A stretch of 64,000 nt of DNA, taken from contig NZ_CP019063.1 in NCBI RefSeq assembly GCF_002951615.1, positions 186,001 through 250,000 of the forward strand, read 5' to 3'. Source of the DNA: Rahnella sikkimica. Lineage in GTDB: Bacteria; Pseudomonadota; Gammaproteobacteria; Enterobacterales; Enterobacteriaceae. The first letter of the stretch is position 1. Each line of letters begins with the position of its first letter. The position numbers and the translations under genes were made by a program. A model generated the notes under the pieces. That model saw only the letters and a program-made list of their open reading frames with translations. It was not told where the DNA came from and did not search any database. Below, piece after piece: positions 2,698 to 7,802 of the stretch.

Positions 2698-2791
2698 CGT
2701 TTAACGGGGATATTTGACACTGGAACAATTCGAAAATCCCTAATATAATCAGCCCATTCATTCACCAACTGAATACATAAGGAGGATTGCC

Positions 2792-2875
2792 ATGCTGACA
2801 CGTGAAGTTTTTTTAATTTCACTCGTCCTTAGCGATCGTCACTGCTCAAGCGTTACCGGTATCGTGCTGCGATAA
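2792..2875 (+). CDS. Candidate 27-residue leader peptide before the ABC-F gene
   Basis: A small frame (begins MLTREVFLISLVLSDRH) with a near-perfect ribosome binding site, AAGGAGG, seven bases before the ATG. Its last codons run through the 5' arm of a long hairpin and its stop codon sits in the 3' arm, so a ribosome stalled or released here would decide which RNA structure forms. It resembles the upstream frames that control antibiotic-inducible ABC-F genes. The peptide itself is not one I recognise. Confidence 0.55.
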   Translation: MLTREVFLISLVLSDRHCSSVTGIVLR

Positions 2876-2934
2876 CCTGCTTGAGCGAAGCTAACTGACA
2901 ATCTGAGAACTTCCCTCCGGCTTACCGGTTATCG
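2844..2934 (+). promoter_or_regulatory. Putative ribosome-controlled attenuator with alternative hairpins
   Basis: GCTCAAGC (2844-2851) pairs perfectly with GCTTGAGC (2879-2886), and GGTATCG (2858-2864) pairs inside it with CGATAACC (2870-2877). The same CGATAACC is an exact complement of GGTTATCG (2927-2934) further on. The two pairings exclude each other. The leader stop codon lies inside CGATAACC. Confidence 0.55.
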
Positions 2935-2987
2935 TCGGCTTTATTGACGAAAGGCATTTGTTTGCCTGTAAAACTTGAGTAAGCGCC

Positions 2988-4745
2988 ATGACATTATTAT
3001 CTGCACAATCCTTATCCTTCGATAATTCCTTCGGTCCTTTGCTGACGGAGATTTCTTTTGGCCTGAAAAAAGGCGACCGCATCGGGCTTATCGGCCATAA
3101 CGGCTGCGGGAAAAGTACCCTTCTGAAAATCCTGAACGGCGAACTGGCGGCCACGTCCGGCACGCTGACGCTGGCGAATCAGTGCATTATGGCGACGGTG
3201 GAACAGCATCTTCCGGCGGCATTGCAGGATGCAACGCTGATTGACGCGGTGCAAAATCATTTGCCCGGCAGCCTTCATCAGCCGGAACGCTGGCAGGCCG
3301 AAGTCTTGCTCGCCTCACTTGGCTTTGAAGAAAAAACCTGGAGTCTGGTCGCCGGAACGCTCAGCGGCGGGCAACATACGCGGCTGATGCTGGCGCGGGC
3401 GTTGATCCGGCAACCGGATTTACTGCTGCTGGATGAGCCGAGTAACCATCTGGATCTGCCGACTTTGCTGTGGCTCGAGCAGTTCCTGCAAAACTGGGGC
3501 GGCAGTTTTGTACTGGTTTCCCACGACCGCAGCCTGCTGGACAATGTCACCAACTGCACCTGGATCCTGCGCGACAAAACGCTGCAATTCATCCGTCTCC
3601 CCTGCTCTTCGGCCCGTCAGGCGCTGGCCGAAAAAGATGCGGCGGACGCGTTGCGCAGAAGAGCCGAACAAAAGGAGATTGACCGGGTCACCCTGAGTGC
3701 TAAACGGCTGGCGGTCTGGGGCAGCGTATATGACAACGAAGGTCTGGCCCGCAAGGCCAAGCAAATGGAAAAGCAGATCGACCGGATGAAGGAAGATCAA
3801 ACCGACGTGACAGCGGGCAATCAGTGGCAACTGCGGCTGCGCGGTGAAGCCCTACCGGCGGATCGCGTGCTGGCGCTTTCTGCCTTACAGATCCGGCCTG
3901 CACCTGACGCGCCGGTCTTGTTTGAACTGGGCGAACTGCGGGTGAAAAGCGGCGACCGTATCGCGCTGGTCGGCCGCAACGGCTGCGGTAAATCATCGCT
4001 GCTGCATCATTTGTGGCAGGCTTTCAGTCAGCCGGAAACCGTTGCTGAGGGCGTGATTTTTCATCCCAAAGTTCGCGCAGGGTATTACGACCAAAGTCTG
4101 CGGCAGTTGCGGGATGAGGATTCGCTGTCTGATGCGCTGGCACACTTTGCGCCGCTGACCGAAGAACAGCGGAAAATGGCGCTGACCGAAGAACAGCGGA
4201 AAATGGCGCTGATCGGTGCCGGTTTTCCGTATCTTCGCCATCAGCAAAAAGTCAGTACGCTGAGCGGCGGCGAGCGTTCAAGGCTGCTGTTTATCGCGCT
4301 GACGCTGGCGAATTACTCACTGTTACTGCTCGATGAGCCGACCAACCATCTGGATATAGAAGGCAAAGAGGAGCTGGCGGAAACGCTGAAAACCTTCAGC
4401 GGCGCTGTCTTGCTGGTTTCTCACGACCGGACGCTCATCGGGCAAAGTTGTAATCGCTTCTGGCTTATTCATCAGCAACAGCTTGAGGAATGGCACAGTC
4501 TTGCGCCGGTCTACGCGATTCTGGCCCAGACGCCAGTACCCGATTCCCCGGCAGCAGTAAAACCACAGACGGCGACCTCTGCGGTTCCCGAAACCGAAGA
4601 AGAACACTGGCTGGCGACGCTGCTGGAGCTGGAAAGTAAACTGGAAGAAGATCTGGCGCGAAAACCCAGACATCAGAAACCAGAACTGCAACGCCAGTGG
4701 CAGCAGCAAATCACTGAACTCAGTGCCTTGCTGGATTTGACGTAG
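2988..4745 (+). CDS. ABC-F family ATPase (ribosome-associated)
   Basis: A soluble twin-ATPase protein of 585 residues with no membrane segments. ABC-F proteins act on the translating ribosome, either as translation factors (EttA, Uup, YbiT, YheS) or as ribosome-protecting antibiotic resistance factors. Domain 1 has Walker A GHNGCGKST (about residue 37), signature LSGGQ (about 125) and Walker B LLLLDEP. Domain 2 has GRNGCGKSS (about 329), LSGGE (about 424) and LLLLDEPTNHLD. A charged linker separates them, and the C-terminal tail looks coiled. It is not a clear orthologue of the four E. coli members. The leader peptide and switching hairpins upstream suggest antibiotic-induced expression. An odd nine-residue exact duplication lies near residues 390-407. 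Confidence 0.85.
   Translation: MTLLSAQSLSFDNSFGPLLTEISFGLKKGDRIGLIGHNGCGKSTLLKILNGELAATSGTLTLANQCIMATVEQHLPAALQDATLIDAVQNHLPGSLHQPERWQAEVLLASLGFEEKTWSLVAGTLSGGQHTRLMLARALIRQPDLLLLDEPSNHLDLPTLLWLEQFLQNWGGSFVLVSHDRSLLDNVTNCTWILRDKTLQFIRLPCSSARQALAEKDAADALRRRAEQKEIDRVTLSAKRLAVWGSVYDNEGLARKAKQMEKQIDRMKEDQTDVTAGNQWQLRLRGEALPADRVLALSALQIRPAPDAPVLFELGELRVKSGDRIALVGRNGCGKSSLLHHLWQAFSQPETVAEGVIFHPKVRAGYYDQSLRQLRDEDSLSDALAHFAPLTEEQRKMALTEEQRKMALIGAGFPYLRHQQKVSTLSGGERSRLLFIALTLANYSLLLLDEPTNHLDIEGKEELAETLKTFSGAVLLVSHDRTLIGQSCNRFWLIHQQQLEEWHSLAPVYAILAQTPVPDSPAAVKPQTATSAVPETEEEHWLATLLELESKLEEDLARKPRHQKPELQRQWQQQITELSALLDLT
4155..4208 (+). repeat. 27-bp perfect tandem duplication inside the ABC-F gene
   Basis: Two identical 27-base copies lie head to tail (4155-4181 and 4182-4208) and keep the frame. 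They duplicate the residues LTEEQRKMA between the second Walker A and the second signature motif. Perfect identity indicates a recent event or an active slippage site. Confidence 0.95.
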
Positions 4746-4788: not shown

Positions 4789-4862
4789 ATCATGCCCGCC
4801 TGTCGCTTTCACCCGCGTCGAGTATGCTTAAAAAGCAGAAACATTTTTCCGGGGAACACAGC

Positions 4863-7802
4863 ATGAAAACCCGTATTAAAAAACTAAAAAATCGGTATCC
4901 GTTACACATCCAGATCACAGCCCTTTTTACGTTTTTAATTGTTTCGATCGGCTGCATTATTATTCTGTTCAGCCACACTCAGCTGACAAAACTGACCGAA
5001 GTCAGCACGCATCAGCAGTATCAGAAAACGGGTGAAGCCATCGCCAGTGAGCTGAATTCCGTGACACGTAATATGGCGACGTCGGTAGATATTCTGACAA
5101 AAATGCCCATCACCGCAGCGCTAACTGAAACAGAACGCATGGCGCGGGTGAGCACTTTCATTATGGTATTACAGCAGAATAATTATGCCAGTTCGGTCTA
5201 CTGCGCTTATTCCAACGGCGATTTCTTTATTCTCCGGCGCTTAACCAGTCAGAATCGCGCGTTATTTAATGCCCCGACCAGCGCGCAATGGCTTGCACAA
5301 AACTACCGGTTTGATTTAACGACACCTGAGAAAAAAGAGTTCTTTTTAGATAATCAGCAAAACGTGATTTCTTCGGGCACTGTGCCTTACGACAATTACG
5401 ATCCGCGTGGCAGAAAATGGTTCACGCTGGCCAGTGCAGAAAAAGGGCTGATTACGTCGCCCAATTATATTTTCAAAGGGACCGGCGAAACCGGTTTTAC
5501 CTACAGCCAGCAGGCTGATAATCAGCACGCAGTGATAGGACTCGACGTTTCCCTCGCTTCACTGTCCGCATTCTTGCAGCAACAGGGATTACCGCCGGGC
5601 AGCCAGGCGGCGATATTATCAGAGTCCGGCGAAATCATCGCCAGCGACCCCGAACAGAAACACGCAAATAACGGTGGCCTGATGGCAGGAAATCTGCCCG
5701 TTTTGCAACCACTGTTATCGCAGGGCAATGCCGGAAACAGCCGCCTTTTTCGCGCGGATAATCAAGACTGGTACGGTTCTGTCATCAATATTCGCAGCAT
5801 GGGAAACGACTATCGCCTGGCGATCGCCACGCCTTCGGCTTTTCTGACCGCAAATGCCAGTGCGATCAGTAACCGCTCCACGCTGATTGCTTTCTTATTG
5901 CTGTTACTCAGCCTGCCGGTTATCTGGTATTTTTCGCGTAAAATTTCCCGTCCGCTGGTCAGCCTGCGAAAAGATGCAGAAGCGATCAGCAATTTGCACT
6001 TCGAGACAGAAACCCATTCCATAAAAGGCTCTGTGATTGAGGAGGTGGATGATTTACATACCGCGATGGCAAAAATGAAACTCACGCTGACCAAATTCAT
6101 CTCTATGGGCCGTATGTTGACCGTTAAGAATAACTTTACTCAGCAAATGCAGGGGCTGTTAACGGAAACCACGGAAATAGCTGACATGACCGGAGGAATG
6201 GTCTTTCTTGCCAATCAGGACATGAATCTTTTCACACCCGTGGCATTCCGGTGGCGCGATGAAAATATTGAACTCGCCGGTATCTCGCCTCTCGAAGTGG
6301 ATAACGAACGTTGCAGTGAATTCTGGAAAATACTCAAAGGCCAGACCCTCAGCGGGATCCTCACGCAGGAAACCATTCCTGCGCCTTTACAGGCCTTCTT
6401 CCATCCGCATTTTCCCCTGCGCTACGTCGCGGTTCCAATGCAGACGCACGATAACCAGCTTCTGGGTTTTCTGTTACTTTTCAATACCACCACGCTCAGC
6501 GACAAGCAGGAAAACGCCAAAGTCCAGCTGATCAATTCGCTGGTCGGGATGTTATCCGTGGCGATTGAAGCGCAGCATCTGCTGGTGGAACAAAAAAATC
6601 TGATGAACGCCTTCATCAGGTTGATCGCCGGTGCCATCGATGAGAAAAGCGCGTATACCGGCGGCCACTGCCAGCGCGTGCCGGTCATCACCAAAATGCT
6701 GGCCAAAGCAGCCGTGGAAAGCCGTGCAGGGCCTTTCGCCAGTTTTACGCTTTCTGAAAACGAGTGGGAGGAATTGCATACTGCCTGCTGGCTGCATGAT
6801 TGCGGGAAGATCACCACGCCCGAAGCGGTGGTGGATAAAGCCACCAAACTGGAGCTGATTTACAACCGTATTCACGAGATCCGTATGCGCTTTGAGTTGC
6901 TGAAACGTGAGAAGGAAATTGAATTCTTACGCCAGTATTCTAGTCATCCCGCCGGGAGCGCAGAGGCGCTGACGCTGAAAGAGACGATACGTCAGCTCGA
7001 CGATGATTTCTATTTTATTGCCCGCTGTAATATCGGCAGCGAGTTTCTTTCCGATGAGGCACTGGCGCGAATCAATCAGATTGCCGGTTACCGCTGGACG
7101 CGCACGCTCGAAGATACGGCCGGTATTTCACGCGAAGAGCTAATGCGTAAAGAACGCCAGCCGCAACCGGCGTTGCCGGTTCAGGAACCGATGCTGGCGG
7201 ACAAAGAAGAACATATCGTCTATCGCGATGGGGCCAGCAAACAGGCCGACAGTTACCATTTCAAACTGAAAAAACCGGAATTGCAGTATAACTATGGCGA
7301 AATCTATAACCTGGCAATCCGCCGTGGCACCCTGAACGACGAGGAACGTTACAAAATCAACGAACACATTATGCAGACCATTATTATGCTCGAAAATCTG
7401 CCGTTCCCGCGCACCATGTCCAATGTGCCGGTGATTGCGGGCGGGCATCATGAGCGCGTCGACGGCAAAGGCTATCCGTTTCAGCTTAATTACACGCAGA
7501 TGAGTATTCAGGTCAGGATGATGGCGATTGCGGATGTTTTCGAGGCGCTGACCGCCGCCGACCGGCCTTACAAACCAGGAAAACTGCTCTCGGAAGCCCT
7601 GAATATCATGGTCAGTATGGTGAACGAACATCATCTGGACAGGGATTTGTTCATCCTGTTCCTGCAATCGGGTATCTGGCGCGAATATGCCCAAACCTAT
7701 TTAGATCCAGAGAAAACCGGTAGCGTCGATATCGCTGCTCTGCTGGCAAAAATCGGCCCGCAATACATTGAAGATATCCCTCGTGAAGAAAGCCCGGCGT
7801 GA
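4863..7802 (+). CDS. Membrane HD-GYP protein with Cache, HAMP and GAF regions (predicted c-di-GMP phosphodiesterase)
   Basis: A 979-residue inner-membrane sensor likely to hydrolyse cyclic di-GMP. The order is TM1 (about 17-38), a periplasmic Cache-like sensor region, TM2 (about 337-357), HAMP, a GAF-like region (about 420-570), then the catalytic domain. The latter shows GGHCQRVP (about 600), the metal-binding HDCGK (about 645) and the diagnostic HHERVDGKGYP (about 862). More than 200 residues separate HD from HHE, much more than in a minimal HD-GYP domain, and the insert is charged and helical. I start at 4863 because GGGGAA precedes it at proper spacing; the frame also opens at 4824. It is monocistronic. 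Confidence 0.85.
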   Translation: MKTRIKKLKNRYPLHIQITALFTFLIVSIGCIIILFSHTQLTKLTEVSTHQQYQKTGEAIASELNSVTRNMATSVDILTKMPITAALTETERMARVSTFIMVLQQNNYASSVYCAYSNGDFFILRRLTSQNRALFNAPTSAQWLAQNYRFDLTTPEKKEFFLDNQQNVISSGTVPYDNYDPRGRKWFTLASAEKGLITSPNYIFKGTGETGFTYSQQADNQHAVIGLDVSLASLSAFLQQQGLPPGSQAAILSESGEIIASDPEQKHANNGGLMAGNLPVLQPLLSQGNAGNSRLFRADNQDWYGSVINIRSMGNDYRLAIATPSAFLTANASAISNRSTLIAFLLLLLSLPVIWYFSRKISRPLVSLRKDAEAISNLHFETETHSIKGSVIEEVDDLHTAMAKMKLTLTKFISMGRMLTVKNNFTQQMQGLLTETTEIADMTGGMVFLANQDMNLFTPVAFRWRDENIELAGISPLEVDNERCSEFWKILKGQTLSGILTQETIPAPLQAFFHPHFPLRYVAVPMQTHDNQLLGFLLLFNTTTLSDKQENAKVQLINSLVGMLSVAIEAQHLLVEQKNLMNAFIRLIAGAIDEKSAYTGGHCQRVPVITKMLAKAAVESRAGPFASFTLSENEWEELHTACWLHDCGKITTPEAVVDKATKLELIYNRIHEIRMRFELLKREKEIEFLRQYSSHPAGSAEALTLKETIRQLDDDFYFIARCNIGSEFLSDEALARINQIAGYRWTRTLEDTAGISREELMRKERQPQPALPVQEPMLADKEEHIVYRDGASKQADSYHFKLKKPELQYNYGEIYNLAIRRGTLNDEERYKINEHIMQTIIMLENLPFPRTMSNVPVIAGGHHERVDGKGYPFQLNYTQMSIQVRMMAIADVFEALTAADRPYKPGKLLSEALNIMVSMVNEHHLDRDLFILFLQSGIWREYAQTYLDPEKTGSVDIAALLAKIGPQYIEDIPREESPA

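Follow-up and report, generated by a model that had tools for sequence, protein, structure and literature searches.

A putative leader-peptide translational attenuator upstream of an ABC-F gene in Rahnella sikkimica and related Gram-negative bacteria

INTRODUCTION

Leaders of ARE ABC-F genes have been described for MsrD (MsrDL), VmlR, VmlR2, CplR, and LsaA, and they are induced by ribosome-targeting drugs (PMC10314930, PMC10201436). A 64,000-nucleotide stretch of Rahnella sikkimica DNA (here called the window; positions 186001 to 250000 of the 549,463-base contig C2, in a genome of 5.5 Mb) carries a short open reading frame (ORF) ahead of an ABC-F gene. Does translation of this frame control the gene and, if so, by which pairings and at which ribosome position? 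The original prediction, made from the letters of the window, was an antibiotic-sensing attenuator in which a 27-codon frame ends inside CGATAACC, a segment able to pair with either of two partners, so that ribosome stalling in the frame would change the pairing. Here, we followed up this prediction by comparative sequence analysis and RNA folding.

RESULTS

The locus, on the forward strand, consists of an MFS gene (1459 to 2697), a −10 box, an AAGGAGG Shine-Dalgarno (SD) sequence, the leader, a 112-nt gap, and the ABC-F gene (2988 to 4745). The candidate leader promoter is marked by the −10 box TATAAT at 2744 to 2749, which was absent from the output of a consensus promoter scan and had no good −35 visible by eye. 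Among 107 distinct upstream regions, −10-like hexamers with at least 4 of 6 matches occurred in 95%, versus 49% after shuffling, and those with at least 5 of 6 in 43% versus 14%; the best match lay between −45 and −50 relative to the leader ATG in 86 regions, that of the window being at −48. The SD sequence, read at 2779 to 2785, precedes the 27-codon ORF at 2792 to 2875, which encodes MLTREVFLISLVLSDRHCSSVTGIVLR before its stop codon. Both the frame with its strong ribosome-binding site and CGATAACC (segment 2; 2870 to 2877, holding the leader TAA stop) with its two possible partners, GGTATCG at 2858 to 2864 and GGTTATCG at 2927 to 2934, are present as originally described, and all of them are conserved. 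That description had missed two pairings, namely, an outer stem of GCTCAAGC (2844 to 2851) with GCTTGAGC (2879 to 2886) and a pairing of leader codons 18 to 20 with the ABC-F SD region.

Pairing analysis thus delineated four segments. Segment 1, the GCTCAAGC arm formed by codons 18 to 20, can pair with the 3′ arm at 2879 to 2886 (stem 1:2, of which GGTATCG with segment 2 is the inner part, with 87.3% pairing across 142 sequences) or with the SD region of the ABC-F gene (1:SD), where CTCAAG at 2845 to 2850 is complementary to CTTGAG at 2974 to 2979; the CTTGAG within GCTTGAGC duplicates the latter. Segment 3, GGCTTACCGGTTATCGT at 2919 to 2935, includes GGTTATCG and can pair with segment 2 (2:3) or with GTAAGC at 2979 to 2984 (3:SD). 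Segment 4 is the ABC-F SD region itself, ACTTGAGTAAGC at 2973 to 2984, the target of segments 1 and 3. Two further hairpins lie in the gap: TCGTC...GACGA at 2932 to 2950 (89.4% paired over 142 sequences), which is mutually exclusive with 2:3, and GGCA...TGCC at 2953 to 2966, just 5′ of the ABC-F SD and noted for its double changes. A small hairpin inside the leader, GTGA at 2802 to 2805 with TCAC at 2819 to 2822, has four near-invariant pairs over 57 sequences with almost no covariation; as a possible structural element in the first half of the leader, it is suggestive only.

The MFS gene immediately upstream is EntS-like, with a weak likeness to Mef efflux proteins; among six annotated relatives, an MFS gene is upstream only in Pantoea sp. 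At-9b (L072), and an operon with this gene as the unit was rejected since five of the six neighborhoods have another upstream gene. Downstream, 4824 to 7802 encode a 992-amino-acid (aa) protein with a weak NCBIfam match, whose HHERVDGKGYP stretch presumably denotes an HD-GYP phosphodiesterase.

We then determined how widely the leader and the gene occur. A protein search (E ≤ 1e-110) recovered the ABC-F in 114 of 392 genomes of the family, representing 39 of 154 genera. When the upstream DNA of all 114 was taken, the leader was present in 111, a count into which the SD is partly built because the leader-finding scripts demanded an SD-like motif. Of these leaders, 108 have 27 codons, two have 28, and one is frameshifted to 35, leaving an intact frame of 27 to 28 codons in 110; the sole broken frame (L172, in G096) has lost one base near codon 24. 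The C-terminal residues are LR in 103, PR in four, VR in two, and MR in one, plus the frameshifted one. Three family genomes with a 42%-identical ABC-F, in which the script found no ABC-F 5′ end, had no comparable leader on reading by hand. A search with the leader DNA gave matches in 30 of 149 family genomes. Among named relatives, those closest to the ABC-F gene are from Rahnella, and all 29 named orthologues (three remote matches of the same search left out) have the leader; these come from Rahnella, Erwinia, Yersinia, Pantoea, Ewingella, Hafnia, Serratia, Yokenella, Morganella, Providencia, and Trabulsiella. In Rahnella laticis (L031), the leader stop is changed from TAA to CAA, and the frame extends by three codons (VLRQPA) to 30.

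At the level of the order, the protein occurred in 47 of 394 genomes (E ≤ 1e-100). Of the 28 genomes outside the family that carry the gene, 26 had a leader of 25 to 28 codons (25 ending in LR and one in LQ), and the other two, with 42% identity, had a divergent 22-codon leader, MKLSQLAFARYLSNLRPQSAVN, IQ replacing PQ in the second. The hairpin of these divergent leaders is unrelated, and their peptide core is similar. By eye, the two (L235 and L236, of the f189 branch) resemble the window leader in layout, differ from it in RNA sequence, and have a possible hairpin of their own, CAGTCCG with CGGGCTG or CGGACTG. In a plasmid collection, where some "plasmid" records are chromosome-sized, 58 records held a relative, and the leader was seen in 10 of 11 loci examined, from Klebsiella, Proteus, Vibrio (two), Photobacterium, Aeromonas, Pantoea (three), and Morganella; in the Rahnella records, the gene is on replicons of about 0.5 to 0.7 Mb. 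The Sinorhizobium locus (37% identity) has a different upstream ORF (uORF): in Sinorhizobium meliloti psymA (L071), a 24-codon GTG-start frame behind AAAGGAGG, ending in NALRMRLQG and located 247 nt 5′ of the ABC-F start, is possibly an independent leader of this remote ABC-F. A class-wide sample (E ≤ 1e-110, three candidates scored per genome) yielded the protein in one of 369 genomes, the window's own; the spread is therefore claimed for the order and not for the class. Neither leader nor gene had a blastn match among 20,395 records of E. coli.

The link of the leader to the gene was evaluated with a covariance model, R1, built from 31 sequences and searched in 384 genomes of the order under stricter filters, by which weak matches may be lost. 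It matched 43 genomes, once each, and in every case the distance to the ABC-F match was no more than 15 nt, in 42 cases no more than 3 nt. Some of these are model sequences or their close kin and match by construction, and what the search adds is that no site other than the ABC-F neighborhood matched. One gene-bearing genome (G1111, with leader L200), whose presence in the sample is uncertain, was not among the matches. Rfam yielded no family at the gathering threshold in the window and none at E ≤ 1 in 2700 to 3000. A generic feature of ABC-F genes was rejected, given the 42%-identical family genomes without a comparable leader and the single kind of site matched by R1. Altogether, the leader looks as if it travels with this ABC-F gene in many enterobacteria, vibrios, and aeromonads.

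Two constraints, one on peptide and one on RNA, are suggested within the leader. Its length varies by whole codons, most differences being N-terminal to the peptide core; between the leader stop and the ABC-F start, 30 different distances occur, ranging from 79 to 155 nt and falling in all three phases (70, 39, and 39 of 148). In 97 of 103 distinct 27-codon leaders, pN/pS in the leader's own frame was 0.77 at codons 3 to 9, versus 1.15 and 1.32 in the other frames, and 0.47, the lowest in the leader, at codons 10 to 16, versus 0.57 (frame +1) and 0.92; it rose to 2.06 at codons 18 to 20 and 1.79 at codons 21 to 25. This pattern suggests that the 3′ third of the leader is held as RNA, while codons 10 to 16 look peptide-like, with modest selection at the peptide level. 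These codons (2819 to 2839), conserved and lowest in pN/pS, encode SLVLSDR in the window, the proposed arrest motif; variants aligned by eye include SHxFGDR, ARFFSN, SQFFG, PRFYG, ARLFG, AYFFG, and ARYLSN. L220 keeps the segment 1 arm in another codon phase, where it encodes A-Q-D rather than S-S, in keeping with a role of the arm as RNA. The leader end, CGA/T-TAA, is almost invariant. Amino acid attenuation was rejected, as there is no run of a single amino acid and the conserved Ser-Ser codons are the hairpin arm.

Folding of 2753 to 3000 gave a z score of −2.64, with 4 of 200 shuffles folding as well, which is modest by itself; conservation takes the structure beyond chance. The CTCAAG-like arm begins 28 nt 5′ of the stop in 145 of 148 distinct sequences (52 nt, 26 nt, and not found in the others). 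In an alignment of 57 sequences, a state made up of 1:2, 3:SD, and the hairpins had 92.9% of cells paired, with 42 double-change cells versus 11.8 after shuffling, and 2:3 and 1:SD were 98.4% and 97.9% paired. Over 142 sequences, where the relatedness of the sequences by descent makes double-change cells overstate events, 1:SD had 39 such cells versus a shuffled mean of 7.3 and 19 in the best slid version. The corresponding numbers were 30, 5.7, and 33 for outer 1:2; 29, 7.7, and 28 for inner 1:2; 12, 2.2, and 10 for 2:3; 13, 3.2, and 17 for outer 3:SD; 30, 9.9, and 17 for inner 3:SD; 13, 2.6, and 17 for the hairpin at 2932 to 2950; and 76, 22, and 27 for that at 2953 to 2966. Slid alignments had at most 38 to 75% of cells paired, versus 86 to 98% in the true alignment. 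CGATAACC with GGTTATCG was 97.5% paired over the 142 sequences, so that the check in relatives called for by the original prediction has been run, with leader and complementary segments both kept.

The 142 sequences fall into four groups: 112 enterobacterial-type, 15 Aeromonas-type, 8 Vibrio campbellii-type, and 7 other. In this order, 1:SD was paired at 96, 98, 100, and 90%, outer 3:SD at 98, 55, 25, and 86%, outer 1:2 at 99, 75, 88, and 84%, and 2:3 at 98, 100, 89, and 98%. The Aeromonas-type group by itself accounts for 28 of the 39 double changes seen in 1:SD, so that independent events are few. The 1:SD duplex (−11.1 kcal/mol overall, versus −5.2 kcal/mol for mononucleotide shuffles) beats shuffles in each group and is weak in L220. 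For 3:SD, the median fraction of shuffles with an equally good duplex is 0.06 to 0.10 in three groups, a marginal result, and 0.63 in the Aeromonas-type group; 2:3 is no better than shuffles in the V. campbellii-type group (0.35), and 1:2 is weak in the Aeromonas-type group (0.12). Judging from these alignments, 1:SD is the sole SD-closing pairing kept across all four groups. The locus shares features with leader-peptide translational attenuators of the ermC kind: a conserved small frame, preceded by an SD of its own, lies ahead of the ABC-F gene, and the helices are mutually exclusive and covary, at least one of them predicted to occlude the ABC-F SD, although not every helix is kept in every group.

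To model which ribosome positions would open the SD region, we imposed a footprint of assumed size on the leaders during folding. Over 147 leaders, exposure of the SD region with a ribosome on the start codon equaled that in free RNA (0.38); it climbed from 14 codons before the stop, reached 0.47 to 0.49 at 13 to 8 codons, and returned to 0.37 to 0.39 in the last three positions. In 118 leaders with distinct peptides, a P site 13 to 8 codons before the stop raised expected 2:3 pairs from 12.9 to 17.5 to 19.9 and lowered 1:SD pairs from 4.9 to 0.3 or less; the SD was unpaired at 0.48 to 0.50, compared to 0.32 in free RNA and 0.29 with the ribosome at the stop codon, where 1:SD was highest. However, when the gap was shuffled, the SD opened almost equally (0.34 to 0.45 to 0.46), and expected 3:SD pairs barely moved on stalling (4.7 free, 4.6 to 5.3 stalled), even though those of the window's own leader fell from 7.6 to 2.6 to 5.5. 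The modeled opening thus appears to come chiefly from covering the anti-SD arm at codons 18 to 20, and the role of 2:3 and of 3:SD as a second lock is suggested by conservation and covariation. Codon 16, the last of the peptide core, is roughly the point at which the front of the ribosome would reach the arm. Because codons 18 to 20 can pair with the ABC-F SD region, the opening stall in these models falls at about codons 14 to 22. The proposal of a leader-peptide attenuator before the ABC-F gene is well supported by comparison, but its modeled switch point shifts away from the stop codon in CGATAACC.

Between leader and gene, T-rich stretches (at least 6 T in 8) occurred in 24 of 147 gaps; among 12 T-runs listed, 11 were in hairpin loops and one, in L119, had no visible preceding stem. 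The gap of the window had one terminator-like match, at 2925 to 2938, which is within chance (2 found and 3.2 expected in the region). With no evident intrinsic terminator in the T-runs of the gaps or in one consensus scan, we read the control as translational attenuation.

The regulated gene encodes a 585-aa protein, as read from its translation and profile searches, versus 573 to 577 aa in the nearest relatives listed; by eye, it contains a 27-bp tandem duplication at 4154 to 4207 (LTEEQRKMALTEEQRKMA). PF00005 matched in two stretches, and two Walker A and two LSGG motifs give the two ABC domains of the ABC-F architecture. The best NCBIfam model, "ribosomal protection-like ABC-F" (NF000355), scored 322.3 bits, below the cut-off of 380, and the protein was far under each cut-off of the Msr, Vga, Sal, Lsa, and OptrA resistance models. 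Its PDB relatives include Uup, YheS, EttA, Lmo0919, a lincosamide-streptogramin A resistance protein, and ExpZ, which we take to be VmlR. From Walker A to LSGG, it has 89 residues, versus 124 in the genome's EttA (L247) and 121 in L248, and by this spacing its Arm is reduced relative to that EttA. From SHDR, a motif not found in EttA, to the second Walker A, it has 151 residues versus 142 to 143 in three other ABC-F proteins of the genome (L248 to L250), so that its linker is only 8 to 9 residues longer. A reduced Arm and an extended linker are frequent, not universal, in AREs (PMC6723617).

The PAF1 subfamily was predicted as a new ARE by Murina et al. in 2019 and occurs in Vibrio, Enterobacter, Klebsiella, Serratia, and Citrobacter and not in Escherichia (PMC6723617). 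The present gene probably belongs to PAF1, the sole reason being that its taxonomic spread fits the published one (PMC6723617). Ribosome protection by its product is accordingly predicted at the level of the published PAF1 prediction (PMC6723617). The main text of that paper does not use the term uORF, whereas the present gene has a leader (PMC6723617). The literature searched gave no resistance phenotype for this ABC-F.

DISCUSSION

We propose that a leader-peptide translational attenuator controls the ABC-F gene, a reading to which we give a probability of roughly two in three. The leader, its geometry and pairings, its link to the gene, and the lack of an evident terminator can be read from the sequences themselves. 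In the resting RNA, leader codons 18 to 20 would close the ABC-F SD region through 1:SD, which is compatible with 2:3. In an alternative lock, supported in enterobacterial-type leaders, hairpin 1:2 would form and segment 3 would close the SD. If a ribosome stalled on the peptide core, its P site lying near codons 14 to 22 according to the models, it would cover segment 1 and block both 1:SD and 1:2; segment 2, now free, would pair with segment 3, leaving the SD open and the ABC-F gene translated. With the ribosome at the start codon or the stop codon instead, the SD would stay closed. From this arrangement, we infer the stall and its site, the sensing of drugs or antibiotics, the direction of switching, and resistance: expression is probably switched on by a block in translation, such as a drug causes, the likeliest trigger being a drug that acts at the peptidyl-transferase center or in the exit tunnel, and the stalled ribosomes would be the target of the ABC-F product. 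Translational control may then be followed by Rho action, as proposed for topAI.

More tentatively, and with somewhat less than even confidence, we suggest that drug-responsive arrest peptides with a core of (small)-(basic)-x-(aromatic)-(Gly/Ser) guard a ribosome-protecting ABC-F of Gram-negative bacteria ranging from Rahnella to Vibrio and Aeromonas, their codons acting as an anti-Shine-Dalgarno and segment 3 as a second lock. Only context-specific inhibitors of the elongation stage, not those acting at the start codon, would then induce the gene.

What stalls the ribosome, and where, bears on several other readings. It is rather unlikely that the stall is intrinsic, with a drug-free arrest peptide released by the ABC-F protein so that the leader gauges ABC-F capacity and not antibiotics. 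The similar peptide core in the 42%-identical f189 branch despite its different hairpin sequence, the occurrence of the leader with the ABC-F gene only in the covariance model search, and the suppression of induction by MsrD via its own leader (PMC10314930) agree with such feedback; nonetheless, feedback and drug sensing can coexist, as in MsrD (PMC10314930), and a conditional role would agree with a gene present in just 114 of the 392 family genomes. Induction by ribosomes that stall on the stop codon of the leader (UAA, following I-V-L-R), as in MsrDL, which stalls at UAA (PMC10314930), and as proposed for toiL with erythromycin, which probably stalls at its end (PMC12121999), is quite unlikely. 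Ribosomes queued behind such a stall could cover the arm, and the leader end is nearly invariant; however, the segment 2 pairings explain this invariance, and with the footprint modeled at the stop, the arm is not covered and the SD stays closed (0.29). Finally, the RNA alone might be conserved and bind a protein or metabolite, the ORF being incidental, as the RNA-like evolution of codons 18 to 25 (pN/pS, 1.8 to 2.1) and the altered codon phase of the arm in L220 would allow. This is most improbable, given that 110 of 111 family leaders preserve the start, the SD, lengths that differ by whole codons, and the stop, that the f189 leader retains the peptide core, and that Rfam matched no family at E ≤ 1 in 2700 to 3000.

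The remaining readings concern how the gene is shut off. Attenuators of the ermC type have a four-segment arrangement, and to our knowledge a pairing of leader codons with the SD is not part of that model. A classical attenuator of this type, with a ground state of 1:2 plus 3:SD, an induced state of 2:3, and no role for leader codons at the SD, is unlikely here: its two states are well paired over the 57 sequences, the ground state with covariation, and outer 3:SD is 98% paired in the 112 enterobacterial-type sequences, but 1:SD alone closes the SD in all four groups, and 3:SD fails in two. Transcription attenuation coupled to leader translation, whether intrinsic or Rho-dependent, is very unlikely. 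Premature termination is typical of Gram-positive ABC-F leaders (PMC10201436), and in topAI, Rho-dependent loss follows translational repression (PMC12121999); on the other hand, the T-runs listed lie in hairpin loops or, in L119, lack a visible stem, and the one terminator-like match of the window's gap is within chance.

The translational attenuator that we favor has its closest mechanistic counterpart in toiL, the uORF of E. coli topAI-yjhQ, whose sequence occludes the downstream ribosome-binding site until stalled ribosomes open it (PMC12121999). As proposed for the present leader, a Gram-negative uORF there pairs its own coding sequence with that site and control is at the translational level, while the target of toiL is a toxin-antitoxin gene and not an ABC-F gene (PMC12121999). 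The authors of that work propose pairing of the whole ORF, with stalls anywhere, including the start codon, inducing (PMC12121999); the present leader, compared with toiL by description, has a modeled opening at about codons 14 to 22 only and possibly a second lock. With ermC-type attenuators, it shares a leader peptide, mutually exclusive stems, and a stall that would expose the SD of a gene acting on the ribosome, although the ermC-type gene encodes a methyltransferase (PMC10219788). The ARE ABC-F leaders likewise place a uORF upstream of an ABC-F gene, and CplR also uses translational attenuation (PMC10314930, PMC10201436). Those with a sequence given have 3 to 6 codons (MRI, MIN, MK[L/Q], MAGN, and MYLIFM), are found in Gram-positive hosts, and include terminators in MsrD and CplR (PMC10314930, PMC10201436), whereas the present leader has 25 to 28 codons, no evident terminator, and Gram-negative hosts. 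No description of it was found in the literature searched, in which subscription journals and bioRxiv were thinly covered.

If this reading is true, a Gram-negative ABC-F subfamily that is a predicted resistance factor has a dedicated translation-stress leader, seen before the gene in records of Rahnella, Serratia, Yersinia, Hafnia, Klebsiella, Proteus, Providencia, Morganella, Pantoea, Vibrio, Photobacterium, and Aeromonas. It would extend the toiL principle, in which uORF codons serve as an anti-SD, to a leader that several families of a single order have retained, and it would provide a new arrest-peptide core to study. Ribosome stalling would then be the condition under which the gene is used, making the resistance prediction directly testable.
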